64,000 nucleotides of DNA from Ceratodon purpureus. Its lineage: Eukaryota; Streptophyta; Bryopsida; Pseudoditrichales; Ditrichaceae. Both the position numbers and the translations under genes were made by a program. The notes beneath the pieces are model-generated. The model was not told the origin of the DNA and searched no databases. It saw only the letters and a list, made by a program, of their open reading frames with translations. Of this stretch, positions 6,227-47,035 are shown one piece after another; the stretch's first letter is position 1; every line of letters starts with the position of its first letter. The stretch is from the NCBI GenBank assembly GCA_014871385.1, contig CM026428.1, forward strand, positions 4,950,820 through 5,014,819, read 5' to 3'.

Positions 6227-6265
<39 letters not shown>

Positions 6266-7009
6266 CAAAGTCCTTGCTACGGCAAACATTCACAAAAAAT
6301 TTCAAAAAATCTCAACTTAAATTGAAGTCATAGGGATATGCCCGAATTCTAAAAAAGCCCAAATGTGGAAGATTGTCCTTTAGGGATTAAATAAATACAA
6401 ATAGACTACCTATAGTAAGATAGCCATCTGGACCTTCTTTTGTGATAGACTAGGAATGGAATTAGATTGTGGTGGAGTGTGAGAATCTTGACATTGAAGT
6501 TGAGTAGTATAATTTATAAAAAATATATATATATTTTTTTTGTTATTGATTTTTTTTTATTTGTATTTTAAAAAAAAAATCTACTATGTAGATTATAGTG
6601 AATAAAGAGTTTATTTCTAGAGGAATAGCATGTATAATCTACAAATAATTCTAATATGCTACCCTATTTTGGTCGTGATGGATTAATTTATTTGGCTAAT
6701 ATTATAGGATTTGTGCTATTTTAGCTTAATGTACGACTAAAATCAATACGGTGAAGGACACAATAACTCCTAGCTTAAACGGAAAGTCTCTTTATATAAA
6801 GCAACAATAGCCTCTACTCATTTTAAAATCTAATTAAGCGCCTTGGTTTCATTTCTCTCGGAGCTCTCTTTCAATCACATTATCCATCAAGCTACTTTTG
6901 ACCTATGAATGCACTAACTTATTGTTTGCACCACAAACTTCTCTTTTGAGTTTTTTAAGCTACCTACAATGATGTTATTCATTTACAAATAATTGTGTTG
7001 TATAGAATC
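5444..7009. other. AT-rich intergenic DNA with poly-A tracts
   Basis: No gene recognised. Contains A-rich tracts near 5940-5976 and an uninterrupted 34-base A run at 6227-6260, which produces a spurious poly-Phe reading on the minus strand. Confidence 0.5.
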
Positions 7010-9664: not shown

Positions 9665-10135
9665 TCAAATAGAAAATAGATTCAAAAATCTATGATAAGG
9701 AAAATATGAAACAAAATTAACAAAACTAGGAAATATGATCCAACAATAGGAAAATAGGATCCTAAGCTAGGAAAGTTTGATCCAAAATAAGGAAAATTGG
9801 ATCGAAAAATAAAAAAATTTAGAAACAAAATTAGAAAAGTTGAATCCTAAATTAGGAAATTTGGATCTAAACAAAGGAAAATTGAATTCAATATAAAGAA
9901 GATAGGATCCAAATTAGAGGATATGATCTAAATTTAGTGAAATATGATCCGAAATTGGAAAAAATGGTCCAAAATTAGAGATTGTATTCCGAAATTGGAA
10001 AAATTTGATCTAAATTAGAAAATATGTTCCAAAATTGGAAAAAAGTTAAATCTAAAATTAGAAAACATATTACAAAATCGTAAAAAATTGATCCAAAAAT
10101 AGAAGATAGGATCCAAAATTTAAAAAATTGAATAA
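9665..10135. repeat. Degenerate ~20-base AT-rich minisatellite
   Basis: About 20-24 imperfect repeats of a unit close to GGATCCAAAATTAGGAAAAT, with spacing drifting between 18 and 22 bases. The same unit forms a second array at 13735-14060. Stops are frequent in all frames, so this is not coding. Confidence 0.65.
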
Positions 10136-14060: not shown

Positions 14061-15197
14061 GGTTACGTATTATCTAACATTGTAAAACATTCCATTAATA
14101 TTCTTGTATTTTTCATAGTATTCTACAATCCAGGACTAGTCTGTCCAACCCATGTCCTTCAAAGGTTGACATCCATGTATTTCTTGAAGCTAGACATCCA
14201 TGTATTTCTTGAGGTTAGACATCTATGTATTTCTTCATGGATTTAAATTTCTTATTCATAAATAATTCAAGTTCACAAAAATAAAAATGTGATTTGGCAA
14301 TGTTTTGAACGTCTTTCTATTGCAATTTGTTTTGAAAATGCTACATCTTTTTGATGCATTTGTAATTTGGAATATTATAGATAAAATGTGCTTCCTTGAA
14401 ACTCCAAAGAATAATCAAACTGAGTAGTGTAAACCATGTAGCCTACAAGGAGTCAAAGGTTTATTGATCCAATTTTGCAAGTTGTTAAATTAAAAAATAA
14501 AACATTTTTCTTTACTTAAAACAGTAAAATATTTCAATTCAAATGGTTAAAATTCTAAAGAAATTCCATGCATTTTTCTAATAGACTACTTTAGATCAAA
14601 TAGTTAAAGTCAAGAATAAAAACAATCTAGTTTCAGTTTTTTATGTGAACATTAGATATAGGAATTTAGAGTGTTTTTCATGGAATATAGCCAAAGAATT
14701 TTTAGAGGTAAAAAAAATTCATGATTGAGAAATTTAACATAATAGAAGTTGATTCATAAATTTGCTACTACACGACAAAACTCACCATTGGACTATAAAT
14801 TTGCAACTACACTAAAAGGTTCACTATTTTAGAACCATCAATTACATAATTTCTTAGAAATAGTAAAATTTAACTACTTTGGGTCCATCAAACCACATTA
14901 TCTTTGGATAACAACCAACCAATCTCAAGGTGTTTTTAGGATAATTCTAGATTCATTTTTCTATGCTTAATTTACATGTGCCTATATGGTTGAGCCCATT
15001 GGTAATACCATAATAAGTTTATTGATAAGATAAACTAGACTAATTCCAAATACATACCTATCTCCAAACACTCTCAAATCCAGAGAATTTAATAGACAAT
15101 GTAGACAAGAATGTACAAGTGCCAAACATAAAGTCTATATTCCTTGAAATATGTATATCTATAGTAACCATCTTAAAGATTCATCACACATTCATAT
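14061..15197. other. Intergenic, nothing recognised
   Basis: AT-rich DNA with one short local direct repeat near 14165-14235 (CATCCATGTATTTCTTGA, about three times). No supportable gene. Confidence 0.45.
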
Positions 15198-15558
15198 GGG
15201 GGAAGTACGGTAAAGTGGACTTCAAAGTGACACATGTGATCATTATGAAGTGATTATGAAGTGTGCTGTTTTTCAAAGCTCAAAGCTAATTTTGAGCATT
15301 TTGGTGTAGTTTCTGAGCATTTTTAAGGTGTCGAAGGTTATCTCACATGCGTCTACAAAGCCTTCGAACAATAACTTTAAAGTGTTTACATTGCGCGAAA
15401 CTTTTTTAAGTTGTAGGAAGACAAGTTGAGAATCTATATTATCCAAAAAAATTGAACTCGAGCACATCTTTCCATTACTTTTGTGCAATTTTTGCAAAAA
15501 GGCTGAAATTGACATTTAGATCAGCACTTTTTTGGTCCACTTTATTGTGTTTCCCCCC
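15198..15558. mobile_element. GGGGGG-ended MITE, copy 1 (short form, 361 bases)
   Basis: Inverted termini: GGGGGAAGTACGGTAAAGTGG on the left against CCACTTTATTGTGTTTCCCCCC on the right. The interior (TTTTGAGCATTTTGGTGTAG near 15292) is shared with longer copies. Its right half, reverse-complemented, reappears inside the composite copy at 32959-34347. The ends are diverged and no exact target duplication is visible, so this is an older copy. Confidence 0.65.
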
Positions 15559-15860
15559 ATGGTGTCTAGAAAATATACCACAAAATGCATTAAAATAATC
15601 TTTTACATGCAAATGGAATTTAATAGAAAACAATCACTTGTTGTTTTAACAGATAATTTTGAGTATAATTTTAAGAATTTTATAAAAATGAAATTTGCAA
15701 TTTTTTTTTGTAAATTGTTACCTCATTTTTGACGTTGGAAATGACATCATCCACTTTCATGAGGATGAAATTAGCAATTTAGTTTTTCTTGTATTTTACA
15801 TCTTATTTTATTTTACATTTTTTTGAAGATAAAAATTCATGTGTCTATTTTTTGAATCAT

Positions 15861-16594
15861 GGGGGGAGCACAATAAAGTGTACCATAAAGTGCAACATGT
15901 GACAGCTAATAAGTGAATATGAAGTGTGCTGTTTTTGAAGGCTCAAAGCTGATTTTGAGGATTTTGGTGTAGTTTTGAGCATTTTAGTCACTTTCTAGGG
16001 TATCGCAAGGTATCTTACACACATCTTCGTAAAAAGAACATCCTCAATTGAAACTAAATTTGACCCCAAATTCTAAATCATGAAAATGAACTTCTCCAAA
16101 GTCTTGATTTCTTCATTTGGGCCCTCTATTGTCTTTAGATGATGTTTTTTTCAATTTAAAAAACAATGCGGTGAAAAAAAAGTGACCAAAAGTATCGCGG
16201 AAAAGACCCTCTTAAAAAGCATCCTTGCGATACTTTTGGAACCCTAAATCAATCAATGAGTATATGGATTGACTATTTTAGAATACCTCTTAAACATACG
16301 GAGGGCCCCGCAAAATTAAAAGTGATTTCGGACAAAACCCTAAACTGTTTTGTTCACTTTTCCAACTGAGGCCATTCACTTTGCCCGAGTTCGACGTCTC
16401 CGTTTTCCATTGTAAACTCAATGTCTTCTACCGCAACTTTCGGAAGTTGAAGAAGATCAAGTCTACTTTCCGTATCCCAAACTTAATCTTACATAGACAT
16501 AACGTAGATCCCACTTTCTCTAGTGTTTACGGAAGGGGCTGGAATTGGGAAATAGTTAAACACTTTTTTGGTACACTTTATTGTGCTTCCTCCC
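15861..16594. mobile_element. GGGGGG-ended MITE, copy 2 (734 bases)
   Basis: Inverted ends GGGGGGAGCACAATAAAGTG and CACTTTATTGTGCTTCCTCCC, flanked by a perfect 4-base duplication TCAT (15857-15860 and 16595-16598). The body has no meaningful open frame. Same family and length class as the copies at 29017 and 34417. Confidence 0.8.
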
Positions 16595-16766
16595 TCATTT
16601 TACATAAAATTTCAATCCATTTTTTTAATTCTAAAATGTGAAGTTGTCCATTCTAAAATGGCAAAGCTTGTATTCTTTGGAAATTTAATAAAGATAAGAT
16701 TTCAACTTTTTTGAAGAATTTTAAAGAAAACTTATTTTTGAAGTTTAAATATTACGATCTTGCAAT

Positions 16767-16800
16767 CATTAGGGGAAAAATCAGATCTCCAACGGGCCTT
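16767..16800 (+). repeat. Left terminal inverted repeat of the 11 kb element
   Basis: CATTAGG, a partly matching spacer, then an exact 15-base block TCTCCAACGGGCCTT. Pairs with 27825-27858. Just inside, CAGCCC/GGGCTG (16807-16827) forms a small hairpin. Confidence 0.7.
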
Positions 16801-17657
16801 GTATGACAGCCCGGATTAGGTGGGCTGCCTGCCCAAAAACCCCTCTGTCGCTGTCAGCAGGGGTCTGAAACGCTGCCCGAAGCGGCCTTTTGGAGACGGA
16901 CGGGAGTTGCGTGGCTGGGTTTTGCCTCGTTGGCGAGAGGGCGTGGACGGTGGTTGTTGAGCGCCAAGGAGTGGAATTTATTGCTCGGCGATTAATGAAC
17001 TGCCTCGATCCGTTGCCTCGATCCACAGATTGTTCGAGTTGTTGCCACAACGGTCTGGGCGCGATGGCACCACCGGCTCTAGAGTCTACGCCGTTCAGCA
17101 CCAAGAAAACGAAGCGCCCTGTTCTGCTTCAAGCAAGTCGTTGTTGGCACTGTGGGAGGCAGAATCGTATGTGATTTGCTCCAAAGATTCCGAGTGGCGA
17201 TGGCGCCCCAGATCGGAGGAGCAAAATTGGGATGGCAATTCATTTCTTGGCAGCGTCCGCTGGCAGCGACGGCGGCGAGGGGTTGTTCTCAGTCGGCGAC
17301 CAAGGTTTCAACGAAGAGATGAAAACTGATGTACTTGAAGGGAAGGTAAGTTAACCTAATTCGATAAACCTTTGTGGGGTGTTCAGGGGCTAGTGGGTTT
17401 TTGAGCAATTTGAATTTCGATTTCATTAGCCCTTGCTGCCACAACGGCATAAGGCAATGTAGGTTTCGTGGTCGACAGCGCTTGTAGATGCCACGCAAGT
17501 CTATCGAATTAGGTTCGGAGTATTTGAGGTTGTGAATTTAGTTTTTCATTGGGTGTAGGAGGTGTCCCAAGATCATAACAAGTTCTCTCGAATAACAACA
17601 AATCACCAAGTGTGACCAGGGGAGATTCAATCAAGATTACCGACTATCAGGTCCACG
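16801..17657. promoter_or_regulatory. Left subterminal region / leader of the transposase-like gene
   Basis: About 0.86 kb between the left end and the first ATG of the transposase-like gene. Carries several TGGCAGC-type motifs (GCTGTCAGC near 16850, TTGGCAGC near 17248, CTGGCAGC near 17260). Open frames here are short and unrelated to anything recognised. Likely promoter and transposase-binding DNA, by analogy with subterminal repeats of plant transposons. Confidence 0.35.
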
Positions 17658-20600
17658 ATGGCAGCAAGGGCTGAACGAAGCAATCAGTACATTCCCCACT
17701 TTGCACTGGACACACGCTATGCCGCGGTCATGAGACGAGGTTCTACGCAAGTGGAGCTGTGCATGAGGAGCTCGTTTCCAACACGGAGGTTGCGTGGAGA
17801 CACGAACATTGACTTGTGGATCAATGGAGACATTTACCCTGTTGATCCAATGACAGGGAAGCCACCTCCAATCAAGTCGCTAAAAGAGTTCGTTGAATTC
17901 ATATGTCATGGAGAGCAGGGTCTTCGCGGATATACACACAGGCTGTTGGATCATTGTGTACATGGTCCTACACAGGAAGAGACGTGGATCCACTTGGCAC
18001 AGTTGAGCGAAGAAGTGCTTCAGCTTAGAGGCGAAGCTCTGGCCAGCAACTCAAGGGCAGCCCAAGATGTCCAATTGGGGAGAATGCGTTGCCTTGAGTT
18101 AGAGAAAACATGCACGGATTTGCAAGCTGAATTACAGGCTGTCCGTGATTGCCATGCCCAAAGGGTGGAGCAATTGGAGCGCCATGTGCGGGGCCTCCAA
18201 GAAGACGTTGACCGCTGCCAGCGGAGGGCCAGCTTCGAGAAGGAGACCCCATGGGGAGGCGAAATAGGAGGAGGGCTCTCAGAGGGATTCACGAGTTAAA
18301 ACCTGGATCAGGTGGATCAAAAGCAAGAGTGAAGCTTGTGCGGACAGTGCTGCAACCAGATGTGGTGCAGTTTGTTGTCGAAAGGAACCGAGAGAACCGG
18401 AAGTGCTCTCGACTTCGGGGGGATAAAGAGTCCCAAAATAGGACTGCAGTAGCACTAGCTCGAATTTTGTCACGGCATGAAGGTGTAGCGCTCGCTTCTC
18501 AGCCTGCAATGGCACATGTTCAGTCAGATATTGCGAAAAATGTGCTCAAATCGATTGGTAAGAGTATTGGACCGGACAAAATTCTTGCTGCTTGCGACCA
18601 GGCAGGGGTTTCCCATCGGGGATATGGTGCTCTCTACAAATCTGTGAAGGCTCCCATTGCTGGTCTGAACAAAGGAGTCTCCGGGAGTATTTTGCCGAGC
18701 CCCTATTACGTGAAACTGCTTCGGCAGGAGTTAAATGCAAACCTGCCACAGTATATTGGCGAATACTACCATGCTGAAGGTCGACTTACGCTGCCAGCAA
18801 GTTCTAAGAAGAACAAGAAGTCCGAGGACATGGTAAAGGAAGTCGTTTTGACTGAGAAGAATTCCCTATTCACAGACCTTGAGGTGGTCCAAAGGAGCAT
18901 GGTGATCTTCTACGGCATTACGGAAGAAGGTAACGTAATCACCTCAGACTGTTGTTTTCAGAGTTTGCTGTTAGCAGGGTTATTTATCAATTAACTGTGA
19001 CTTACACATCCACTCGCCATATTTCCACAGAGTTAAGAGGGGCACCGCTGGTATTTATCATGAAATTGGATGAGACCGAGATTGTCAATGGCAAGAAGTT
19101 TGAACGGGTCAGCATCACATTGATGAATAGGGCGCTCGACCCAGACATTCAGAGGAACCATGCCCTGTTTTTCTTAGTCCAGTCGGAGCAGGAAATCTGG
19201 CCAGTGGCAACCTTTCAAGTGGAAAAAGAGTCCTACGAAGTTCTGTCGTGGATATTTGGGAAATCCAAATTTCCATCTGTGATTGCAGCACAGTCCAGTG
19301 GCGAGAAACTCACGGTCCCTGAAGTTGGAGAATTCCATGTGGAGTGGCATCTCGCTGTGGACATGAAGACGATCAAGTGTATGTACGGGCTTCAGTCGGG
19401 GCCGTCGTGTGCGATGAACTGCATATACTGCGAGCAGAAGAGGGCTAAGCCTACCATAGGGACATCAAGCCAGGCGAGTGCTGCCATCAGAAAACGTGGG
19501 AAACCGAACTGGGTGGGGGGACTGTTTGCCAACTCTGTGGAGCCAGAACCATGTGACATGCGTGCACATACAAGGTGGAGGCCTATCTTGCCAATTCCGT
19601 TGCAAAGAGTGCACATTTGTACACTTCACGCCCTAATTCGCCTAGCGGAGAAGATTGTGCATCAACACATCATTTATGTCTGGAACATACAAGATCAAAG
19701 ACTGAGGGCTACAGCCATAGAGCAAATGGAGAAGTCCTTGTCAGCTATCGGGGCTCACGGTGGCAACGTGGAGATTAGAAAGGATCCGAAACTGAGTGGC
19801 AGCACAGGGAATGTGCCACAGAAGCCATCTTTCAATGGGGTTGTTGCTAGCAGACTATTTAAACCAAGCGTATGGTCTGGAAACGACAAGGCCTGGAAAG
19901 ACATATGTCAAGCAGAGAGCAATAATAGTGGCGGCGGTGCACATCGTAGGGCAAGGGCTGCTATGTGGCAAGCCTTTGAAGAGGTTCTACCATATTTCAG
20001 CGGCTTGGTGCTGACAGCAGAACAATGACTCCAGTTCAAAGGGAAGATAGAAACGTGGGGGAGAACATTTTTGGAGGCCTTTGGAGAGGAGCATGTGTCG
20101 CACTACATGGTGAGTTATATAAACAAAGTTTGGGATGAATTAGGGGTTGATGGCTGACCTCACTTTCGTCAATTCTCTATCCAAGACTAACCTTGGAGTG
20201 GCTGTTGACAGCATGTAATTGTCAGGCATGGCAGTTGGTTTGTGGAGGAATACGATAGTCTGGCCGTATGGAGTTGCCAGGGTATGGAGAAATCCCATCA
20301 TCAAGCGAAGGCAGCGAATCAAGCGCATACAGCTTACGGTGGTGGCAAAGAGCGCATCAGTGTTATTTTGCAACAATTCCAACATTGATACCGAAATATA
20401 CAGCATCGGTATAAGAAGAAATTAGAGTGCACCAGGGTTCTCAATACCCCGGATGATGAGGCCCGCATGGAGGCTACACGTAGAAGGCGAGAACAGTGGC
20501 ATCGATCAAATGCTGCCAGGGCTTTGGAGAATTGGCGGTCAAGGCGACGGCGTGTTGGCAAAGCTTGGGTGTGTGATAACACCGTTGGAGGTGATGGAGC

Positions 20601-20751
20601 CAACAATGATCAAGCAAGAGGATCTGCCAACGAAGATGACCCCGGGGAGGAGGGCAACAATGTGGATCTTGAGGAAGGACGCAACTCAACTGACGGTGAC
20701 GACGCTGGCAACAACGTGGACAGCGATGACGCTGACAACGAGCCTGTATGA
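17658..20751 (+). pseudogene. DDE transposase-like gene, frameshifted with two nonsense codons
   Basis: Reads as one protein of about 960 residues in pieces: 17658-about 18240 (coiled-coil-rich N-terminus), a shift consistent with a 1-base loss, about 18245-18929, intron 18930-19030 (phase 1), 19031-20109, intron 20110-20211 (phase 0), 20212-20751 (acidic C-tail). Stop codons at 20026-20028 and 20386-20388 lie inside otherwise continuous similarity. Core features: LDET (Asp codon 19069), VEWHLAVDMK (Asp 19360), a Cys-x3-Cys-x2-Cys knuckle (19408-19431), a TLHALIRL helix (19621) and WSCQGMEKSHH (Glu 20287). This order of acidic residues with a zinc knuckle between them recalls RAG1/Transib and a large family of uncharacterised cnidarian transposase-like proteins. 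Where those have Asp before TLH, this copy has Cys (19618-19620). Presumed role: cutting and joining of element ends in the nucleus. Superfamily uncertain. Confidence 0.6.
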
Positions 20752-21958
20752 ATTGAGTACAATGCGTTCTAAACTCATTGGATGGACATCTATAATGTAG
20801 CAAGTTTTTTTTTTTTTTTTTTTTTTTTTTGATCGGAGTAGACAGTGGTTCTTCTTTAACATGTTTTTTGGTTTCATTCTAGAATAGCCATTTACGGATA
20901 GATTTATCAAAAAATGAGGATTTTTTCGAGCAATTCTCTAAAATGGCTATGCATTGCTATGTTAATCTCGATAATTATTCAAGAGGCACCCATTGAGAAG
21001 GTAGTAACTCCACTGACGGAGAGGTCGCTGGCAGCAAAGAGGATAGTGACGACGCGAGCAATGGCCGTGTGTGATTTGAGAGCTCTGTGTCTTAGTAATT
21101 AATTTGTAGCTATGTAGAATGTGGCTGCCAACAATGTTCTTTTTTTTATTGGGTTAGACCATGGTTCTCCCTTAAACTTGTTTTGTGGATAACTCACGAT
21201 AGTGCCCACTCCATGCAATTAGTAATCTCCTTAATTAATGGGTCTTAGTAATCATATGTACCGGTCCCACTAAAATTAAGATTTTAATTTCTGAGATGAT
21301 TTTCTAAGTACCCACAACAAATGGGGATGTGCGGTTTAGGGCCATGGCAATGATTTCCATGGAGTGGCAATTAAGGGGGATATGAGAGCTTCCCACCAAC
21401 TCCGTAACCTCCCTTCATTAAACTGTACTTGAGACCCTGAACCCCCCTAACCAAGGACGCACAGGTGGTTGACTCCAGCACGGGTTCCCCTCTCAGTTCT
21501 TCTCTTCTTCCCACACGCCGCACGTGGTTGACTCCAGCACAAGTCCGCGCCTTCTTGCTGTCGAGGCCGCTCCCCTTGCTTCCAGCAAGCGCGCGAGCTT
21601 TACTTCGTTTTTCAATTGGAGTTGTGGGTGCCGGGGAGAGACCGTGGACACGAAGGAGGGCGTCTTCGTGCCGTTGCTGATCGGGAGCACGTGACGCCGA
21701 GGGCAGCAGCCGAGGAGTCTAAGAAACCGTTCGAGGTTGCGGAGTGCAGCTCGAAGGAGCTGCAGCGTGCGGCGCGGGCCGTGGAGGAGGGGGCAGCGGA
21801 GCTCGGGCGCAAGGGACTATCTTGACTAAGCTGCAAGGAGCTGAAGAGGGAGCTCCATTGCACGCTCGCTCAGGCGCAAGGAGCTGCGGAGGCGCAAGGG
21901 GTAGCGAAGAGCTGCGAGGAGCTGCGGAGGCGCAAGGGGCGCGAGGAGGCTCAAGGGG
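20752..21958. other. Non-coding spacer inside the 11 kb element
   Basis: Follows the transposase-like gene. Contains a 26-base T run at 20805-20830 and TGGCAGC near 21030. Small open frames look random. From about 21470 the DNA becomes G+C rich, grading into the tandem repeat. Confidence 0.45.
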
Positions 21959-22144
21959 CTGCGGGGGTGCAAGGGGTTGCGGAGGCGAGCTGCGGAGGGC
22001 AGCTGCAGAGGCGCAAGGGGCTGCGGGGGTGCAAGGGGCTGCGGAGGCGAGCTGCGGAGGGCAGCTGCGGAGGCGCAAGGGGCTGCGGGGGTGCAAGGGG
22101 CTGCGGAGGCGAGCTGCGGAGGGCAGCTGCGGAGGCGCAAGGGA
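21959..22144 (+). repeat. 62-base GC-rich tandem repeat, three units
   Basis: Three near-identical copies start at 21959, 22021 and 22083, each beginning CTGCGGGGGTGCAAGGGG. Diverged relatives extend to about 21840 and 22370. The period is not a multiple of three, so the long Ala/Pro/Ser- or Gly/Arg-rich readings on both strands are artefacts. Lies just upstream of the RING-type gene and may act as promoter or structural DNA of the element. Confidence 0.75.
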
Positions 22145-22607
22145 GGAGCGGAGGAGGCGCGCAGGGGCGAGTTGCGGAGGAGCAAAGTCGTAGCAGAGGT
22201 GCCGCGAGGCGCAAGGAGCGGAGCTGCAGACGCGCAAGGGGCGAGTCGCGGAGGCTGAAGAAAGGGTGAGCTGCAGAGGCGCGCAGGGGCGAGTTGTGGA
22301 GGCGAACATTTCTGGAGGCGCAAGAGACGAGCTGCGAGGCGCGAGGGGCGAGCTGGGGAGGAGCAACAACAATTCTGCTTTGGACTTTGGTGAGGTAAGC
22401 TGCTGGTTTTCAGCTCTCTCCTCCGAGCCTCCTCGCATGGTTTTTTTAATTAGCTGTTGGAGTGAATCGGCCATGGTGTATTCGGAGTAGACAGTGGTTC
22501 AGCCATGGCCGCCGGAGTCCTTAGTTCTACAGGATTTTTGGAGTGAAAATGTAACTAGTCTAATCCGCAAGAATAATACCCTGTCCGTTTCTCTCCTTTC
22601 AGCTGCC

Positions 22608-24643
22608 ATGCGCGATCCCCCAATCGTAAAACGTGTTGTTTTTGCACTACCAGCGCCAGGGATGTCGAGCCGTAGGAAGGGAAAGGCCGCAGCTTCTCGG
22701 GAGGAGGATCGCACTGAGAAGAAGGAGGCCATCGTGAAGAAGGAGGTCGTCGAGCTTGCTGACAGCAAGGAGGATGCCAACGATGTTGAGACGGGCCATG
22801 GGATGATGCGTTCGACTTGGAGGGCTTAACCCCTGCACTTCATGGACAGCTCCACCACCTCGTCCCATTTCTGCTGGGTAGGGAGGCTGCGGATTACGAT
22901 GAGGACTTCTTCGCCCGCATCTTGCAGCTCTCCAACAAGGGGTTGAAGTTCAGTGACCTCAGCAGCGAGAAGCACTGCAGGAAGAAGGACTTCATCGACA
23001 GATGGCCAGAGCGTTCTTCTGGTCGGCACTACGTTGCTGACTGTGAGGATCCGGAGGCCCACAGGAAGTACTTGGAGATGTACCGGTGGACCTATGGAGG
23101 TGACCCCGACAATTGGGCATTTGGGACCACCTTCCTTCGGGCTTGCCACCTCTACTTTGAGGAGGGCGTGGATGTCAACTTCGCCCTGAAGGCGGAGGCA
23201 ATTGTGAAGGGGCGCGAGAAGCTGCCAGGGCGTAATCCGCAGAAGTTGACACCCCCGGCCTTGAGGGAGCAGATTGAGGCCATCATCGACTTCCTCGCAG
23301 GCCACGTCCCCGGTGCTGTCAGCAAGGGCAAGGGAGGAGGGGCGGCTGCGAGCGGAGGAGCCAAGGCAGTCGGAGCCACCTCCAAGGCCATCACGGCCGC
23401 GGAGGCGAAGAAGGCAAGGGGTCCTAGATCCGTGCCCGCCCCTGTCAAGGCCGTGGTGGAGAAGAAGGCCGTGGCTGAGAAGAGGGCCGTGACGACCCCT
23501 GCTGCCGCTGCCATCAAGGTGCAGCCCTTGGTGGCAACGGATCCGAAGCAGGTCCTGGAGCAGCAGCGCCTCAAGAAGCAGTCCTTGGAGGCGGCACTTC
23601 TGAAGGTGGAGGCCAGCCGGGACCGCGTGAAGGTCGACCTTGCAACCCAGCGGGACTACATCAAGGCCGAGGAGTCCAAGCTCTACGACGACATCTTCTC
23701 CGCCCGCGAGCCGCCAAGAAGGCCGCGGCTGATGGCAACGATCAAGAGAAGAGGCGCTTTGATCAGGCGGCCCGCTTAGGCCAAGACAAGCTGGGGCTCG
23801 CAAGCAAGGCACTCCTTGAGGCCCAGGCCCGCATTGACAGGGTCTACAAGAAGTTGGAGGAGATGGAAGCCGATGAGCAGAGACGGCATGCTGAGGTCTC
23901 CGCGCTGACAGCGGAGATCTCGGCCTTGGAGTTGGCATCAGCTTTCTTGCGGCCGCAGAAGGTGTTGGCTCGTTACCCCCGGGAGTTCCAGGTGTTGCCA
24001 ATAGCCCTCAACGACCCATGCCCCTTCTGCGAGCGTTACTTCGTTGACACCTGCTGCGTGCCTTTGTTCTGCGGCTGCTTGGCACATCCTCATTGTATGT
24101 TTGAGGCAGTCTTCTCTCAAGACGCCCGATGCCGTCGATGCGAGCGGGGGATGACTGGAGGGTGGCTTGGGCAGTGGGGCTTCGACCTTGACTCCAAGGC
24201 CGCGGAGGAACTACGCCTCACGGAGGAGGTCCTTCTGGCCGAGCCCGCTTCACCACGTGCTGGCAGCAAGAGGCCCGCTGCCCCCTCAGTGGCCGCGCTT
24301 CCGTGGAAGAAGGCCAAGGGCGACCAAGGTTTGTGGCCCCTCAACCCATCTACCCATTTCTTGTTGCCTGCCTCGTTGTTACATTTACATTTTCTTCTTT
24401 TCTAACTCTTGTTTGTTGCCAGCAACTGCAGAGGATGCTCTCCCCGACTCAGACTCCCTGGCGTTCGATCCCACGCAACGCTCTCCTCAGGAGACCCAGG
24501 CAGCCCTATCTGGAGATGGGAACAAGGACTCATCCGCCACCACGCAAGGACCACCTGAAGCAGAGAAGAACGAGGACGACACCAACATGGAGGGACTGTC
24601 GAGCCTTGTTGAGGCAATTGCCACAAACGCAGCCGTGGAGTAG
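22608..24643 (+). pseudogene. Coiled-coil/RING-finger accessory gene of the element, frameshifted
   Basis: Basic, lysine-rich N-terminus (MSSRRKGKAAA at 22662, in frame with an ATG at 22608), then a globular region (22790 onward, including YRWTYGGDPDNWAFGTTFLR), an Ala/Lys-rich linker, a coiled coil (about 23540-23940) and a zinc finger at 24016-24150. The finger has Cys-x2-Cys (PCPFC), a central CGC-x2-H-x2-C (CGCLAHPHC) and a final Cys-x2-Cys (CRRC), a RING-like layout. A phase-1 intron at 24329-24422 leads to an acidic tail ending NAAVE. The frame slips near 22790 and near 23705, each consistent with loss of one base, so this copy is broken. RING fingers often give E3 ubiquitin ligase activity, but the role in this element is unknown. 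Start uncertain: CTTTCAG before 22602 may be an acceptor of an upstream exon. Confidence 0.5.
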
Positions 24644-25923
24644 ATACCCACCTTGGATAGTTTTGTAGGCCGGGTTAGGGGTTTGCTGGCAGCGACTTTT
24701 GGTCCGGAATTTTATGGGCAACCTTTCTTAAACTTTTTCGAACTTGAAAACAATTTGCCTCTGGACTGCCATGTCTCTTTGAAAGATATGGCATTCTTGT
24801 AACCCTTCCTTTTTATTGGCAACTGTATTTCTTCTTTATTGTGGACTGCCGACAGCAAGGGCTGCTCTTTAGCCGCCATTTTATCTTTCGAACTGTTGTT
24901 CTCTTCAAGCCCGCGCTGTCTGAGAGCATTGTGCCCTCATCGAAGTTCTTTCCTTTGTATTTCCCTTCTTCTATGCAATCAGGTTGCATTTTTTATTTCA
25001 CCGCTGGTATTTTTTTTTTTTCTTATTTCATTATTCGCCACCATGGTCCCTTTCAATTTTGGCCATTGTTGTTATTTACCATCTGCGACCTACTTCATCT
25101 CTTATGTACAACTGTTTTTTATTTTTATCTTGTTCTATTAGAATCAAGCGTGGTTCTTTTTTTATTTGCAACCTTCCTTTTTTCCTCTTTGTTGGCACCA
25201 AGGGCTGCATTGTGCCCGCCATTGCCAGTTCAGAGCACCAGGTTCACGAAGGAGCCAGCCTCTTCGGAGGAAGTAACAAACTTTACATTCCTTCCTAATT
25301 ACTTCATATTTGTTAAGTGCCAAACTCCATTTTGTGCCTCTGAAGGGTCATGTGCTCTATTGTATGCAATTGTTTTTCTTTTCTTATTTTGCGCTGGCAG
25401 CAGGCTCCACCGTCAATGGCGCCACCACAAGTTCGAAGCAATTTTGCGATTCAGACCCAGGCCCTCTGAAACCCCGGCCATTCTTCAGACTTCTTGTATT
25501 TTATTCTATTTTTCATTTTGCACCCTAGGATTCACCACTGGTAATTGTAACTGTTCTTCTTTTCTATTTCCGCTGGCAACACGAAGATCAAGGGTACTTC
25601 AAATTTGCCTCCATATAACACGTTAATAGAGGATGTCCCACAGAAAGTCCTGAATGGTAAGCAAAACCACTACCTGAACTCGTTAACGACTTCGCGAAGA
25701 ACCTAATGACTTCCCACATACTGTGACTACCCATCCCCGAAATCACTTTTCCTACAGCTCCACAATCTTCATCCTTTTGGGAACCGTGACATCCGCAGCT
25801 GTAAGGTGTCTCTCATGGCGCTGGTTGATCTGCATCCAACAAATCCTGTCATTTTCGTTTGCTGGCAGCAAGGAGCTCTGAACAGCCAATTCCCAACACA
25901 TCAAAACGACTACATGAATTCGG
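24644..25923. other. T-rich spacer between the two accessory genes
   Basis: Pyrimidine-rich on the plus strand, with TGGCAGC or close variants at about 24688, 25191, 25395, 25570 and 25862. A 261-codon open reading of 24841-25626 is Phe/Leu-rich simply because T/C-rich DNA lacks stops. A possible last exon of the minus-strand gene lies near 25806-25835: an AATGACAG acceptor, then a reading ending DQPAP. Confidence 0.4.
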
Positions 25924-27090
25924 CTAGACTCGTACCTTTTTCTCACGAACACCGTTGGCCTCTATAAAAACCAGGTTGTACTGCCCAGGTACGTCATCTC
26001 CAAGTGCCATTGCAATTTCGTGCCGCAGGTGGGATACTGGCCAACCGTTGCCAACTGCGAATGTTGGCAGCAAGTTCCCCCTAAACATACAAGACACTTC
26101 CACCATCACCTCCTCTGGTAGGTGATCCAACGCTTCCCACTGACTGTTGGCAGCCCCCCTATACCTTGTATACATGAACCTGGTGTATAATGTTTGTCTT
26201 CCCACGTGATAGCGGAAAACAATGCTGGTCCTGTTGGCAACGCACTTGATGACATCTTGGCCAATGTGGAACTTCTCGTTCCACCCTGGGTTCATTAGAA
26301 TGCTCAGCAGAGCCTCGGATGGACTACTCAAAACAAACAATGTAGGTGTCCGCCTAATGCTGTCAGCAGCTACCGCAAACAAATCAACCATAACATGGAT
26401 TGGCCTAAACCATTGGTGGTGGACGAAGCTGCTACCAGTTGTTGCTTTCATAGCATTTGCAAAATCGAGAGTGAGCTTTGTTCTAAACGCCTCAGATGTG
26501 TGCATGTCTGGCAAAGGCCACTCCACATCGTTGAACCCTGGAAGCGGGAGTGCTTCAACCTTCCCGTACAGCGTGTCACCTGTTGGAGGCAAATACAGAC
26601 CACCAAGAAAGAATGTACCTATGTCCAGCAACTCCGCGTGGCTCTATCGATTCCGTGTTGCCTCCCCAATCTCAACATGGAGCACAAGAATGGGACCAAG
26701 GATAGATGCAGGATGTACCCAATCCTCCGAAACCGACGCGTACAGGTAGTTTGCCATTCCCAATTTGGTTGCTGCCTCCGCAGGATCCAAGCGCAGATGC
26801 CTTGGTTGATATGCATGTTGCACAAGCACCTTATCGAGGTCGCATGCTCCATGCTACGTGGAGATCCAAGAGAAATCTGTGATCTGCGCTTTGAAGGCCC
26901 CCCGAAAATTTTCTCCACCATGTCGCCTTGCCTCTCTACCCCAAGGCCCATCCGACGCTGGTTGCAGCATAACCCATGAATCACGATCCACCCTCATGGG
27001 GATCCAGTTGCCCTCCAAGTCTTGAGTATTATGCAGAATGACACTCTGTACGAGGGAGTTTGGCCGTGAAGCCATACCACTAGAATGCAT
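25924..27090 (-). pseudogene. Third gene of the 11 kb element, unknown family, two stop codons
   Basis: A single minus-strand frame runs from ATG 27088-27090 (MHSSGMASRPNS) for 388 codons, interrupted only by TAG at 26854-26856 and TAG at 26644-26646. Both fit CAG (Gln) to TAG changes. The segments between are clearly protein-like, e.g. LLDIGTFFLGGLYLPPTGDT and FVHHQWFRPIHVMVDLFAVA. The C-terminal part (HLRHEIAMALGDDVPGQYNL) could be a small ubiquitin-like or PB1-like fold, but this is a guess. AAG|GTACGAG at about 25937 may be a donor to a short last exon. No signal peptide, membrane segment or known catalytic motif was seen. It converges on the RING-type gene. No known family is recognised. 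Confidence 0.45.
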
Positions 27091-27824
27091 GAAATTTTCG
27101 ACTGTGAACTCAAAAACTTACAAATGCTGTCGTCGCTGTCATCAACCGCCAGAACTACACGCTGTCAATACACCCTCCGCCATCACGAACGGCTAAAACC
27201 TGCGTCCACGGCCTCGCAACCAAGGTACGACCTACCCTAAAACCTCATCCCGAAACCCCAATTCCCAACTCAGGTACTCTCTCCAACCTATGTGGATGGC
27301 AGACCGCTGGCAGCGTTTGGAAGACCACTACAGCTAAACCCTAAATCTCTATTGCACAATGCGTGACCACCCACAACCGAAATCGAACAACTTCGCCCAG
27401 CCTTTGGAGGCCTCCACCGCTCCATCCTGCTTGACAACGCAACGACGACAACTCTCTCAGGGGAACGCATGAGGTTCGGAATGACCGTTGGCAGCATTTC
27501 GACATCAACACCTTGTGCACGTTGCATCTCAAAGGGGGAGCGGCAATTCGATTTCGGTAGGTGGCCTGTGGAGTCAGTTTTGAAGGAGTTCATAAAGCCC
27601 ACCACCGCTGACACCCTTCTGCAATGCTCGAATTCCGTGCGCGAAGAGGCTCCGTTCTCGACCTGCGGGACTACACGCGCGGGGGAGGGAAGCCTTCCTG
27701 CGCGACTATTGGCCGGACCCCCTCATTCGCGATTTGGCTCGCTTTTGGCGACCTGCTGGCACAGTTGGTGCCAGCAGGTAAAGTGCACGGGCATAGCAAA
27801 AATTTTGGCACAGAAAACATGGAA
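27091..27824. promoter_or_regulatory. Right subterminal region of the 11 kb element
   Basis: Upstream of the minus-strand gene and next to the right end. Holds TGGCAGC copies near 27305 and 27488 and the perfect hairpin at 27752-27778. A 108-codon minus-strand open frame (27288-27614) shows no recognisable domain and may be leader. Confidence 0.35.
27752..27778. repeat. Perfect 10-base hairpin, motif palindrome
   Basis: CCTGCTGGCA, seven-base loop, TGCCAGCAGG. The arms contain the TGGCA core of the element's scattered motif in both orientations, 80 bases from the right end. A likely protein-binding or structural site for the transposase (inference). Confidence 0.6.
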
Positions 27825-27858
27825 AAGGCCCGTTGGAGACCCCAAACTTCTCCTAATG
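27825..27858 (-). repeat. Right terminal inverted repeat of the 11 kb element
   Basis: Inverse of 16767-16800: AAGGCCCGTTGGAGA exact, then a diverged spacer, then CCTAATG. Confidence 0.7.
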
Positions 27859-28939: not shown

Positions 28940-29016
28940 TTAACAATCAAGAACAATTTTTTGGATTTGTCTTATCAACAACGTGTAATCCAAAATAATC
29001 CACATTAATTCTTTAT

Positions 29017-29751
29017 GGGGGGAAGCACAATAAAGTGGACCACAAAAGTGCTTAGCTCATTGCCAATTTCAGCCTGTTGTGTAAACACGCTAGAAAGTGG
29101 CATCTAAAACTTCTTAATGGGAAATTAAGTTTAGGATATAGAAAGTAGGCTTGATGTACTACAACTTCCAAAATTTGTGTTCGTAGTTGTTGAGTTGAGA
29201 CACCCTATGAACACGACAAAGTTGAACAAAGTGAATGCAGTCATTTGGAAAAGTGACCGTATTACATTGTAGTTTTGACAGAAATCACTTTTGACTTTGT
29301 GGGGCCCTTTGTTTGTACATTACGCTTGTAGAAATGATCCGGGTGGCCGTGTTTGCAATCCTGGATTGGCAAAAAGTATCCCCGGGACGTTTTTAAAACA
29401 CTGTTTTCGGTGAAACTTTTTGTGAGGTTTTTTTAACCGAACAGTGTCTTTTAAATTGGAAAAAAATCCTCTAAAGACAATAGAGGGCTCCAAATGAAGA
29501 AATTAAGACTTTGGAAAAGTTCATTTTTATGATTTAGAACTAGAGGTCAAATAAAGTTTCAATTGAAGATGTTTTTTTCATGGAGATGTGTGTAAGATAC
29601 CCTATGACACCTTAATAAGTGACTAAAATGCTCAAAAACTACACCAAAATGCTCAAAATCAGCTTTGAGCTATAAAAAACAGCACACTTCATATTCACTT
29701 CCTAGTAATCACATATTGCACTTGGTGGTCCACTTTATTGTGCTTCCCCCC
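29017..29751. mobile_element. GGGGGG-ended MITE, copy 3 (735 bases)
   Basis: Ends GGGGGGAAGCACAATAAAGT and ACTTTATTGTGCTTCCCCCC, flanked by the 4-base duplication TTAT (29013-29016, 29752-29755). Nearly identical over much of its length to the copy at 34417, implying recent movement. Confidence 0.85.
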
Positions 29752-31298: not shown

Positions 31299-32958
31299 GC
31301 CATGGGCCATTCGGTAGACAACGTCGCAGCGTGTCACGCCAATCTCGATCGATCTAGATCTTGCAGGCACGCTCTCCCAGGTGACTCCAGTCTCCTCCGC
31401 AGCAGTTTAGATTTCGGCGCTGCCATCTGCTAGCTCCCAGCTCTTGCTCGGAAGAATCTCCCGATTTTGTCTCTTTGTACTGAATCCAAATGGGTAGGTA
31501 GTTCATTGTAGGTAGCTCATTGATTGCAAAGGGTTCGTTGAGCCCGGAGCCTCGGACTGGACGATTCCCGCTGACATTCGCAATGTTCTCTGTGGTTCGT
31601 TCTGATCTTCCACCTTCACCCATTTGGAAGTTGCTACTTCACCTTCAGTACCGCCTCTGTTACTTGTCTCTTGCACTTCATCCTCGTGATCTTCCCCGCC
31701 TTAGTTGATCTGCAGTCTTTGGTCACCATTCGCCGCATTCGGTGATCTCCAGGCTCTTCACGTCAGCCGTTCTGGAATGATGAATCGGTAGAGCAAATTG
31801 GTCTGTTTTTCCGAAGGCCGTTTGTCTTCGTAGTATCATTCTTCACCGCGTTTCGCATTTTCCGGTCCTGTTTCCGTTACTCGTGTAAACGTCGTAGCTA
31901 GTTGGAGATCTTACGCTTGCCTGAATTATTCTAATCCGCTCTGCTCTCTGTACCAACACTTTCTTTGTGAGATGTTCTGTGCCGTAAACAAGTATACTTC
32001 AAGAATTTTTGTGGAATATTTGTTTATGGAGAACAAGTACTTGTCTTTCAAAGAGAACCGAAGAGGCAAAGGAACACTTTCGTTGAATCTGTATATATCA
32101 AAGTACTAGATTTCCATCTTAGCACTAGTTGCATAGCAATCATGCCTGGATACAAGTTTCTTGAGTATATGGATTCAGCTCGAGCTAATGTCTGCGTTAG
32201 GGAGGAGGCTGATTTCGTTTACTTCGTCTGTAAAGCACCAAATTCTCAAGGTTCTCTGTAAGAGCCTCACTTCAAATCACTAATCATTGTACCTGAAAAT
32301 GTGGTTGACAATGTGAATGTTTCAACTACATCGCCAGTTTTTGAAATACAATTTAAGAATGTATCATATTTGAAATTTAAGGCATCCATATATCCGTATT
32401 ATACATATCCATATATGAATCATTCAAAATCCAGCGCAGAATCACACAGTTTGCAGATGGTATTAGGTTTCCATGCAAGATATGCAATTCTATTGAGTCT
32501 CCCATGTTTTGTAAGAAATTACTCCCGAAGTTGCTTCTAAAATGGTTTTTAGCCCGTTGTCTTTGTGCTCGGAAAGATCATTCGGATTGATCAGAAACAA
32601 GAAGAGTGTGCTTGGAGTGTGCAGGCAAAATATATGAAACACACATTTGTTGTTATGTTTTCTATATAGTAAAATGAAGATCATTTCTGTAGATTTAGTT
32701 TGATGTTTGTTTCAATCAAGGGAGGTGTGCACTCAGTTACTGCTACGAACTTTCTACATTCTCAACCTATGTCATGAAGGCATGAAATCTCTACAAAAAT
32801 TCAAGATGTTTCTTCTTCTACCACGTTTCTGACTTTTTTTTTTTAAGTTACTTATTCTTCATATTTAGCTATGATTTTTATACTGCATAAACTTTCATTT
32901 AACAGTTAAAGTTTTAGGTGTTTTGGGAGCGAAAACTGCCAAAACCATAGGGAGAGAA
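31299..32958. other. Intergenic; leader-like DNA, no clear gene
   Basis: 31350-31770 is moderately G+C and pyrimidine rich, like a plant 5' leader, and a short 39-codon frame begins at about 32142 (MPGYKFLEYMDSAR). No longer exon or domain can be built onward, so no gene is called. Confidence 0.35.
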
Positions 32959-34347
32959 GGGGGAAGCACAATAAAGTGGACCAAAAAAGTGCTTAATATC
33001 TTTTCACCAATTTCAGCCCCTTCCGTAAACACTAGAGAAAGTGGGATCTATGTTATGTCGATACAAAATCAAATTTGGGATACGGAAAATAGACATGATC
33101 TTCTTCAACTTCCCAAAGTTACGGGAGAAGGCATTGAGTTTACAATGGAGAACGGAGAGGTCAAATTCGGGCAAAGTGAATGGCCTCATTTGGAAAAGTG
33201 AATATAATGATTTAGGGTTTTGTCCGAAATCACTTTTAATTTTTGTGGTGCCCTCTGTATGTTTAAGAGGTATTTTAAACTAGTCAATTCATATACTCAT
33301 TGATAGGTTTAGGGTTCCAAAAGTACCGCAAGGATGTTTTTAAAGAGGGTCACTTCCGCGGTACTATTTGTGCATTTTTTTCCACCAAACTTTGTTTTTT
33401 AAATTGAAAAAAAAATCCTCTAAAGACAATAGAGGGCACCAAATGAAGAGATTAAGACTTTAGAAAAGTTCATTTTCATGATTTCGAACTAGTGGTCAAA
33501 TTTAGTTTCAATTTTGGATGTTCTTTTTATGAAGATGTGTGTAAGATACCTTATAAAACCCTAGGAAGTGACTAAAATGCTCAAAAACTACACCAAAATG
33601 CTCAAAATCAGCTTTGAGCTGTAAAAAATAGCATACTTCATATTCACTTGTTAGTAGTAATTTCAGCCCTTTTGCAAAAATTGCACAAAGTGATGGAAAG
33701 ATGTAATTGAAGTCAATTGTTTTTGCCAATATGGATTCTCAACTTGTTTTTCTACACTTGGAAAAGTTTCGTGCAAAGTAAACACTTTAAAGTTATTGTA
33801 CGAAGGCTTTAAATCCAAGCAAAGTAAATGCAGTCATTTGAAAAAGTGGCTAAAAATAATCAAAAACTATCTAAAAAAACACTTTTGATGAAGTGGTGCC
33901 CTCTGTATGTTTAAGAGGTATTCTAAAATAGTCAATTCATATACTCATTGATTGGTTTAGGGTTCCAAAAGTACAACAAGGATGTATTTTTAGAGAATCA
34001 TTTTTGCGGTACTTTTTGTGAGTTTTTTCACCGAAGATTATTTTCTAAATCTAAAAAAACATCCTCTAAAGACAATAAAGGGCATCGAATAAAGAAATTA
34101 AGACTTTGGAAAAATTCATTTTTATAATTTAGAACAAGTGGTCAAATTAAGTTTCAATTGAAGATGTTTTTTTTTGTGAAGATGCCTATAAGATACCTTA
34201 TGACACCTTAGAAAGTGACTAAAATGCTCAAAAACTACACCAAAATGCTCAAAATCAGATTTGAGATTTAAAAAACAACACACTTCATATTCATTTCCTA
34301 TTGATCACATGTTGCACTTTGTGGTCCACTTTATTGTGCTCTCCCCC
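32959..34347. mobile_element. GGGGGG-ended MITE, copy 4 (composite, 1.39 kb)
   Basis: Family ends at 32959 (GGGGGAAGCACAATAAAGTGG) and 34347, but the body is about twice unit length. At about 33657 the sequence switches from long-form family DNA to the reverse complement of the short form (compare 15273-15515), then back to a second long-form right half (from about 33893). No target duplication. Best read as a recombinant or nested pair of copies. Confidence 0.65.
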
Positions 34348-34416
34348 TGTAAGCGCCCGACCTGTGTCATCTTCTCTCATCCTCTCTCGTGATCTCTCTT
34401 ATGCGAACATGTCTTT

Positions 34417-35146
34417 GGGGGGAAGCACAATAAAGTGGACCACAAAAGTGCTTAGCTCATTGCCAATTTCAGCCTGTTGTGTAAACACACTAGAAAGTGG
34501 CATCTAAAACTTCTTGATGGGAAATTAAGTTTGGGATACGGAAAGTAGACTTGATGTACTACAACTTCCGAAATTTGCGTTTGTAGTTGTTGAGTTGAGA
34601 CACCTCTATGAACACCACAAAGTTGAACAAAGTGAATGCATTGTATTTTACCGTATTACATTGTAGTTTTGACAGAAATCACTTTTGACTTTGTGGGGCC
34701 CTTCATTTGTACATTGCGCTTGTAGAAATGATCCAGGTGGCCGTGTTTGCAATCCTAGATTGGCAAAAAGTATCCCCGGGACGTTTTTAAAACACTGTTT
34801 TCGGTGAAACTTTTTGTGAGGTTTTTTTCACCAAACATTGTTTTTTAAATTGGAAAAAACATCCTCTAAAGACAATAGAGGGCCCCAAATGAAGAAATCA
34901 AGACTTTGGAAAAGTTCATTTTCATGATTTAGAACTAGGGGTCAAATTAAGTTTCAATTGAAGATGTTTTTTTCATGGAGATGTGTGTAAGATATCTTAT
35001 GACACCTTAAAAAGTGACTAAAATGCTCAAAAATTACACCAAAATGCTCAAAATCAGCTTTGAGCTATAAAAAACAGCACACTTCATATTCACTTCCTAG
35101 TGATCACATATTGCACTTGGTGGTCGACTTTATTGTGCTTCCCCCC
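34417..35146. mobile_element. GGGGGG-ended MITE, copy 5 (730 bases)
   Basis: Inverted ends as in copy 3, flanked by a perfect 4-base duplication CTTT (34413-34416, 35147-35150). Lies 70 bases from the composite copy. No coding potential. Confidence 0.85.
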
Positions 35147-38098: not shown

Positions 38099-39070
38099 TT
38101 ACTTTCTAGTTTGTCTAGAAGATACCATATGCCCAGAGAAGAAACTGTGAGAGGATGAAGATGATGGAAACCTAGTGATTGACATAAGTTTGTGCTCAAC
38201 AAGAAAACTAGCAATTGAAGAGGCAAACACAAAAATTCCATGAGAGGATTTGTGTGTCCGGTTTCTCTCTAAAAAATCCAACTTTTCTGCATTGCTCTTT
38301 CCCTTCATCTCTTCTAAGTAAGTTGCTTCGGTGTGAATGCCAATAAGTTTGTTGTTGGAGATAACTGCACCACCGGAGCTATTGGAGAAGCATGTGTAAT
38401 CTCCTGAACACTGAAAAGGATTCAAAACACTTGCCACTTGACCATGAGTGACGGTTGGAGTACTCATCATGAATTCCTCCTTTAGCATAAACGGATACGA
38501 AATTAAATGTATCTTCATATGTGGAAACAACATGTAACCCAAAGAAACAAAATCAAAATCGATGCCATCACCATCTGTTATCTGCAAACATGCAATATCC
38601 AAATCAGCATCTCGAGCCAAAATCTCCACTTGGTGATCACCAACTCTTAAACGCTTGTCTTTGGTTCTCATTCTTGCAGCTTCCAAACAATGATTTGCTG
38701 TTAGGCACATCCCTTTTTTATTGAAAATCACAACTGTGCCATATGTGACCAATTCTCCTTTCTTTACCACCTGCAACCTCAAAACTGCTTGTAATATTTT
38801 GTTATCTAATCCTGTGGTATCTGAGATTGCCACATCAGAATGTTGATAAATGTATTCAGTCTGTGACAAATTCTCCTCTTGAGATGTCACAATTAGGTTT
38901 TCTTCTCCCGCATGGACTAACACTCCTTGAGGAGGAAACATTTGCGCCATATACTTCAAAACCTTGCCATCCTTGGTTCCCTTCTTAAATTTTATCTCCT
39001 TCTCACCAAAAGTCACGGTGATCATCCCCTCATGAGACATCTGCACATCACCAACCAATATATTCACCAT
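38099..39070 (-). CDS. Trypsin-fold serine protease, intronless
   Basis: A 323-residue protein with a chymotrypsin/DegP-like peptidase domain at about residues 93-250. The triad is complete: His127 in TANHC, Asp158 in DADLDIACLQI, Ser232 in SNSSGGAVISNNKLIGIHTE. The spacing suits the trypsin_2 / S1C-like group. Residues 1-90 form a separate N-terminal part (ITVTFGEKEIKFKKGTKDGK) that may be a small beta or ubiquitin-like domain. There is no signal peptide, and no PDZ domain follows, unlike classic Deg proteases; the C-terminus is a serine-rich tail. An uninterrupted frame among intron-rich neighbours suggests a retrogene or a lineage-specific family. The ATG at 39070 is the first in frame. 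Predicted soluble and cytosolic or nuclear; substrate unknown. Confidence 0.75.
   Translation of the reverse strand: MVNILVGDVQMSHEGMITVTFGEKEIKFKKGTKDGKVLKYMAQMFPPQGVLVHAGEENLIVTSQEENLSQTEYIYQHSDVAISDTTGLDNKILQAVLRLQVVKKGELVTYGTVVIFNKKGMCLTANHCLEAARMRTKDKRLRVGDHQVEILARDADLDIACLQITDGDGIDFDFVSLGYMLFPHMKIHLISYPFMLKEEFMMSTPTVTHGQVASVLNPFQCSGDYTCFSNSSGGAVISNNKLIGIHTEATYLEEMKGKSNAEKLDFLERNRTHKSSHGIFVFASSIASFLVEHKLMSITRFPSSSSSHSFFSGHMVSSRQTRK

Positions 39071-43540: not shown

Positions 43541-47035
<3,495 letters not shown>

Follow-up and report, generated by a model that had tools for sequence, protein, structure and literature searches.

A decayed copy of a high-copy, three-gene DNA transposon, probably of the Lanisha group, that inserts without target-site duplication in the moss Ceratodon purpureus

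What is the 11.1-kb segment enclosed by inverted ends in a 64,000-nucleotide stretch of the Ceratodon purpureus genome (contig CM026428.1, positions 4,950,820 to 5,014,819; hereafter the window, to which all plain coordinates refer), and do its genes travel together? An earlier reading made from the letters of this stretch (the sequence-only reading) had proposed a DNA transposon carrying several genes, namely a transposase-like one, one for a coiled-coil/RING-like protein and a further one. The same ends, gene order and spacing were found to recur in the genome, in agreement with that proposal. Window positions 16767-27858 hold one decayed copy of a DNA transposon present in many copies. It is a mobile unit whose ends are fixed and whose three genes travel together, and it has short partners, the miniature inverted-repeat transposable elements (MITEs). 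With considerable confidence, we read the segment as a decayed copy of an autonomous cut-and-paste transposon of the Lanisha group, which has recently mobile relatives, would join its target with zero stagger and would be bound by a protein at a repeated palindrome. The borders of the window copy and the structures at its ends are the following:

16767..27858, + strand: whole element, window copy, 11,092 bp (ten other copies measure 10,793-10,833 bp)
16767..16800, + strand: left terminal inverted repeat, starting CATTAGGGG
27825..27858, - strand: right terminal inverted repeat, starting (inward) CATTAGGAG
27752..27778, no strand: inverted repeat CCTGCTGGCAC-n5-GTGCCAGCAGG close to the right end, seen also in the MITEs whose right part was read

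The terminal inverted repeats of the window copy span 34 nt, of which 27/34 (79%) are complementary, and include the exact block TCTCCAACGGGCCTT, just as the sequence-only reading had described them; they go beyond chance because the same ends recur. The genome searched was a 362.5-Mb assembly of 151 contigs, in which contig C6 accounts for 110.5 Mb (30% of the assembly). The best 40 of 713 candidates for the left end comprised the window and 39 others at 96-99% identity, as did the best 40 of 835 candidates for the right end (also 96-99%). Left-end matches started at query positions 2-10, with 25/39 exactly at position 8, which is window position 16767 (hand count). Counted as patterns, with individual places not inspected, the exact end occurred 541 times genome-wide (263 + 278), a 44-base piece of the transposase core 210 times at up to three mismatches and a 32-base piece of the MITE interior 287 times at up to two mismatches, against zero for the control in each case (a reversed pattern for the ends); a single-copy end, which the sequence-only reading had named as fatal to its claim, is thus contradicted. 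All 21 copies compared (ten chosen via genes, ten via ends, and the window copy) begin and end with CATTAGG..CCTAATG. When 100 of the 541 end places (C1 to C3 only) were paired as convergent ends less than 30 kb apart, 37 pairs were obtained, with lengths of 359-453 bp (n=19), 10.77-11.41 kb (n=12) or other values (n=6), and 26 ends stayed unpaired by this rule. For 18 of the 40 scored left ends, a scored right end followed no more than 40 kb downstream, at a distance within 15% of 10.8 kb in 15 cases; missing partners, both here and for the genes below, are partly explained by the use of best-scored subsets such as the best 40 of 713 left ends. Giant elements of 93 kb and 120 kb, hinted at by convergent ends, were rejected, as the fetched ends belonged to separate short elements.

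Between the ends lie three genes, whose exon borders are throughout predicted from splice signals in the sequence, and a GC-rich block:

17658..18929, + strand: gene 1 exon 1, N-terminal part, coiled coil; predicted splice sites, 1-nt gap in the window copy
19031..20109, + strand: gene 1 exon 2, with C(2)C, H(4)H and what are taken for the first and second catalytic D; interrupted by one stop in the window copy
20212..20751, + strand: gene 1 exon 3, with the putative catalytic E (GMEK) and an acidic tail; interrupted by one stop in the window copy
21200..22600 (approximate), no strand: GC-rich block, internally repetitive and lying upstream of gene 2; aligns poorly between subfamilies
22662..24328, + strand: gene 2 exon 1, encoding a coiled coil and a RING-like cysteine/histidine spacing; frame broken twice in the window copy
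24423..24643, + strand: gene 2 exon 2, C-terminal tail; predicted splice sites
25924..27090, - strand: gene 3, protein without recognised family, 388 aa in a copy whose frame is open; the window copy has two stops

Gene 1 was examined in the full copy C2a, where three open exons yield 963 aa if joined at plausible splice sites. Its motifs follow in the order KLDE, ADMK, CIYC, HICTLH and GMEK, with D438 as the presumed first D and with C555-x2-C558 and H619-x4-H624 located, by eye, between D535 and E810; judged by the order and spacing of these motifs, gene 1 looks like a 963-aa DDE transposase. Exon 2 was free of stops in 67/112 scored rows (hand count). Searches of Pfam, PHROGs and NCBIfam returned no match that names gene 1, those listed being weak, below cut-off and mostly coiled coil, and a PDB search with exon 2 alone returned nothing. 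A PDB match of a transposase piece to 'Linker L1' (E 0.0067, residues 290-362) lies outside the catalytic motifs and was taken as chance. Close relatives of the transposase pieces were found neither in viral contigs nor in prokaryote genomes.

RING domains are recognised by a rule of cysteine and histidine spacing, and it is this spacing (C-x2-C-x13-C-x-C-x2-H-x2-C-x11-C-x2-C in exon 1), with no RING-type match found in Pfam, that makes the gene 2 product a candidate coiled-coil protein with RING-like features. Gene 3 looks like a single exon, because a 397-codon frame was present in 87/150 scored rows (hand count). The sequence-only reading had the number of genes right, but apparently two of them, not three, are multi-exon. 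C2a has open frames for gene 2 exon 1 and for gene 3 too. A PDB search with gene 3 gave one chance-like match (SPATA45, E 0.4), no close relatives of its pieces were found in viral contigs, and a ubiquitin-like reading of its C-terminus was rejected as unsupported by family and PDB searches. As for the GC-rich block, it constitutes the largest difference among copies: the window copy is 55-61% identical there to the majority of others, and C2a differs there from C1a or C9a as well. From one subfamily to another the block has been swapped or quickly rewritten, with both of its sides remaining about 90-100% identical.

Linkage of the three genes was assessed in best-scoring subsets, which are not a census: the best 112 of 1,094 candidates for transposase exon 2, 130 rows for gene 2 (129 scored of 1,432 candidates) and the best 150 of 932 candidates for gene 3. 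Gene 2 (at 2-9 kb) and gene 3 (at 4-14 kb) followed downstream, in order, in 83/112 scored transposase matches, while neither did in 14/112; together with the ends common to 21/21 copies, this is the repeated co-occurrence that the sequence-only reading had proposed as a check, and it speaks against genes that occur separately and without shared ends. With a tolerance of 15%, genes 1 and 2 lay 3.7 kb apart in 88/112 cases, and genes 2 and 3 lay 3.0 kb apart in 103/130. Controls were far lower, namely 0/112 in the wrong order and 6/112 on the opposite strand for genes 1 and 2 (30 kb), 1/130 (30 kb) and 2/130 for genes 2 and 3, and 3/112 and 2/112 for genes 1 and 3. Within the same best-scored subsets, 47/112 transposase, 59/130 gene 2 and 73/150 gene 3 rows fell on C6, so that C6, which looks like a moss sex chromosome, carries dozens of copies. 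The passage of the review PMC8000587 that describes the Ceratodon purpureus genome gives it 360 Mb, with U and V chromosomes of more than 100 Mb each that make up about 30% of it.

Ten full copies, chosen from transposase matches and each fetched as two halves, were 94.0-100% identical to one another and 92.1-92.6% identical to the window copy. Copies C2a and C9b, which lie on different contigs within dissimilar flanks, differ by 3 substitutions and no indels over 10,829 bp, and therefore the element moved recently. Frames of all three genes were open in three of the four copies inspected (C2a, C12a, C1a and C9a, the last with a broken gene 3), in line with the intact copies that the sequence-only reading had expected elsewhere in the genome. 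Against C2a, every one of the three genes is damaged in the window copy: the transposase has the 1-nt gap in exon 1 and the stops in exons 2 and 3, gene 2 has 13 gap columns in its exon 1, and gene 3 has the two stops. The ratio of non-synonymous to synonymous substitution rates (dN/dS), calculated for five coding segments of C2a against C12a, C1a and C9a in 15 mutually dependent comparisons with few changes each, was 0-0.28 in 11, 1.14 in one (gene 2, C9a) and undefined in three that had no silent changes. It was 0.27-0.41 in five comparisons of C2a with the broken window copy, and below 1 in 7/8 comparisons of genes 2 and 3 with C2a. Paired copies of identical or near-identical score were also observed (C10:4791899-4807395, C6:80929495-80953667 and C8:16436022-16568887); two of the pairs are oppositely oriented, which suggests inverted or direct segmental duplications.

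The sequence-only reading had also looked for a constant target duplication, and here it was not borne out. At the joints of 21 copies (the ten full copies, ten chosen via flanks, and the window copy), exact direct repeats measured 1 bp in seven, 2 bp in one and 3 bp or more in none; with one mismatch allowed, there was a 4-bp repeat in 1/21 and a repeat of 5-12 bp in 0/21. Empty sites were continuous for C1a (C8:14628171, 220/220 identical) and C10a (C8:485756, 219 bases, 99%), and the 800-bp joined flanks of these copies aligned with their best matches without gaps, at 16 and 20 mismatches (98.0% and 97.5%). For a MITE at C2:8759269, the empty site was matched 120/120 at four places, and a weaker empty-site relative of C2a lies inside the window itself (6263-6390, 84%). 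When flanks were joined without removal of any base, open frames ran over the joint for 386 codons in C1a, 390 in C10a and 158 in C6b, and removing or adding 1 or 2 bases shortened them; among eight copies with joint-spanning frames of more than 100 codons, six had the longest at zero offset (modulo 3). The joined-flank frame of C6b matches the CACTA transposase family (PF02992, 6.7e-32), with profile positions 56-207 as one stretch. Insertion thus neither duplicates nor removes target bases, as seen at the empty sites of two copies and one MITE. Since the empty sites are exactly continuous, CATTA is part of the element and not of a CATTAATG target, and a TA duplication within such a target is ruled out. 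No fixed motif marks the joints; there is a weak bias at the third base outward, which is A or T in 34/42. One copy (L043/L044, C4:11305133-11316450) lies in or beside a cytochrome P450-like frame; its joined flanks give a 105-codon frame that matches PF00067 at 1.4e-07.

The MITEs, about 450 bp long, bear the ends of the element. Thirteen of 14 fetched short elements retain its first 68 bp (94-96%) and its last ~118 bp (80-99%), the exception being L087 (359 bp), which belongs to a sister type with near-symmetric ends and retains 47 bp and ~100 bp. They are likewise without target duplication.

A 9-bp palindrome, GYTGNCARC, is spread over the element, with 26 sites in the window copy:

16850..27495, no strand: 26 palindromic sites GYTGNCARC, spread over the window copy
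First bases of sites 1-9: 16850, 17259, 18214, 18790, 20010, 20204, 20704, 20731, 21027
First bases of sites 10-18: 21124, 22758, 23315, 23904, 24259, 24415, 24685, 25393, 25572
First bases of sites 19-26: 25861, 26047, 26063, 26146, 26233, 26359, 27306, 27487

The most frequent 7-mer of the element, simple ones excluded, is TGGCAGC (22 in the element versus 3 in the rest of the window). Eleven copies hold 26-28 palindromes each (28 in C2a, 26 in C9a and the window copy), where 200 second-order shuffles of each sequence gave a mean of 1.1 for C2a and 1.2 for the window copy and a maximum of 5, and where five control palindromes of the same form occurred 0-2 times per copy. Outside the element, four sites were counted in the other 52.9 kb of the window, and none in 19.4 kb of flanks or in 16.1 kb of empty-site loci. 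The sites of C2a divide into 13 within its 5,752 bp of coding DNA and 15 within its 5,077 bp of non-coding DNA, and synonymous-codon shuffles of the coding part gave a mean of 1.03 and a maximum of 5, with 0/1,000 reaching 13. Each of the 14 MITEs carries the palindrome 1-5 times. Of the 26 sites of the window copy, 23 are kept in all ten other copies, two in nine and one in none; at such overall identity, site retention is by itself no evidence of selection.

Among DDE transposons, staggered target cutting, and hence target duplication, is the rule; Spy is a known exception. In the mechanism that we propose, the putative transposase of gene 1 would bind the CATTAGG ends, excise the element with the help of a RAG1/CACTA-type D-D-E active site and attach both ends at directly opposite target bonds, which would leave no gap to fill and so no duplication. 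The palindrome could be a dimer binding site for the product of gene 2, of gene 3 or of the transposase N-terminus, and the bound protein may gather or mark the DNA of the element for transposition, for anti-silencing or for both. That a transposase of the CACTA/RAG clade evolved blunt joining, combined with a self-labelling 9-bp palindrome, maintained within coding exons, through which one of the two extra proteins coats or marks the element, perhaps as a silencing shield, is a speculative and rather doubtful proposal.

The membership in Lanisha is probable on the basis of motifs, termini and host, compared by description. As set out in the relevant parts of PMC12730594, Lanisha is a DNA transposon group proposed by Maumus, McDaniel and Carey (2020, Repbase Reports 20:2521), EnSpm-like and with C(2)C and H(3-4)H motifs; the CMCT clade that includes it has these motifs between the second D and the E, 5'-CA..TG-3' termini "in most cases" and target duplications of 2-5 bp. 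In our data, the C(2)C/H(3-4)H motifs were seen in C2a (by eye, without a profile match) and CA..TG termini in 21/21 copies. In the Ceratodon genome paper, Lanisha is reportedly abundant on the sex chromosomes. The family itself is probably not new, so that the suggestion of an undescribed family in the sequence-only reading is doubtful; the zero-length duplication and the palindrome are the additions. Judged by titles and the beginnings of abstracts, none of the papers found on terminal inverted repeat transposons without duplications or on Ceratodon, moss or sex-chromosome transposons describes this element.

Several observations weigh against the interpretation as a Lanisha transposon with zero-stagger joining and a bound palindrome. 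None of the three proteins has a family match above the curated cut-off or a PDB match relevant to its naming, and motif order is the sole basis for calling gene 1 a putative transposase. In gene 2, dN/dS between C2a and C9a is 1.14, on 12 changes. The duplications of 2-5 bp described for the CMCT clade are absent, with 0/21 copies at 3 bp or more and 1/21 at 2 bp. Short exact repeats occur at MITE joints (1 bp in 1/14, 2 bp in 3/14 and 3 bp in 1/14, with none of 4 bp or more), the empty-site relative of C2a carries three mismatches just right of the joint, and the joint frames of C1c and C13a (2/8) are longer at other offsets. The palindrome was generalised from TGGCAGC after the data had been inspected, and the element is also enriched in further short words, most of which come from the GC-rich repeat block.

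The rival that survives best concerns the role of the palindrome, which by analogy might be the target of a VANC-like anti-silencing protein of the element and not of its transposition machinery. We consider this a real possibility, although not the favoured one: the motif is enriched along the element as in VANDAL21 (according to the part of PMC5735166 concerned), motif clusters are present in 13/14 MITEs and the element has two additional genes, but VANC21 sites are described there as mainly non-coding whereas 13/28 sites here are coding, and a motif in MITEs is equally expected under a role in transposition. That the element represents a new superfamily, separate from Lanisha and with a zero-bp stagger as its hallmark, is unlikely. 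The duplications credited to the Lanisha-containing clade in the quoted part of PMC12730594 would favour it, as there are none here; however, the statement on that clade qualifies the termini by "in most cases" and could be imprecise about duplications, the element is high-copy and CMCT-like in the Ceratodon genome, and the Lanisha authors Carey and Maumus are also on the Ceratodon purpureus genome preprint, as McDaniel is on a Ceratodon linkage map. An ordinary CACTA (En/Spm) element whose 3-bp duplications have decayed is very improbable. The CA..TG ends and the C(2)C and H(4)H motifs fit CACTA, and En/Spm carries a repeated short motif, to which GYTGNCARC could correspond. Yet the transposase gave no match to PF02992 (Transposase_21) in a scan at E up to 10, while the CACTA relative in the C6b flank did at 6.7e-32; the ends read CATTA and not CACTA (CATTAGG..CCTAATG), no duplication of 3 bp or more was found in 21 copies, and near-identical young copies lack duplications while three empty sites are exactly continuous. 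Lastly, chance capture of genes 2 and 3 as host genes in the window copy, for which one could cite that neither protein matches a known family, was rejected as next to impossible, since both genes recur in the same order and spacing with open frames in many scored rows.

Besides the transposon, the window holds a repeat family of about 740 bp with inverted ends of about 35 bp (GGGGGGAAGCACAATAAAGTGGACCA) at 15861-16598, 29016-29751 and 34416-35146, with partial copies within 15196-15560 and 32958-34347; its copies lie on both sides of the transposon, which accounts for the larger inverted repeats of the window. Three matches to U5 spliceosomal RNA, one much weaker, fall within about 10 kb (52746-52858, + strand; 58776-58888, - strand; 62700-62813, - strand). 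By eye, we also noted genes resembling those of a calcium-dependent protein kinase (43541-47053, - strand) and a LysM-domain GPI-anchored protein (55992-56906, - strand), a trypsin-like protease-like frame (38099-39076, - strand), and diverged direct repeats at 9723-10131 and 49772-50325.

A recently moved, high-copy element with RAG1/CACTA-type motifs and no target duplication offers a natural system in which to ask how stagger is set. Annotation methods that require a target duplication could miss such a family or misplace its borders, and a palindrome that persists in coding DNA in spite of codon choice gives a testable clue to self-recognition by large plant transposons.

Compared with known systems, the element shares the C(2)C and H(3-4)H motifs with Lanisha as described in PMC12730594, but the clade of the latter is credited there with duplications of 2-5 bp and this element has none. 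With CACTA/CMCT-type elements it has in common the D-D-E order, the C(2)C and H(4)H between the second D and the E, and the CA..TG ends; it differs from them in the absence of duplication, in the lack of a Transposase_21 match and in two extra genes without a recognised domain family. The transposases of Spy and VANDAL21, and the ends of VANDAL21, differ from those of this element. Spy, of the PHIS group, is likewise a DNA transposon without target duplication, but according to the part of PMC4482050 that treats it, it has one gene and inserts within AAATTT, whereas this element has three genes and no fixed motif at the joints of 21 copies. VANDAL21, one of the Arabidopsis MULEs, is, like this element, a multigene plant transposon with a short motif repeated along its length; in the part of PMC5735166 concerned with it, VANC21 binds YAGTATTAY at mainly non-coding sites and methylation is lost along the element, whereas the motif here is unlike that one, palindromic, and present in coding DNA as well.

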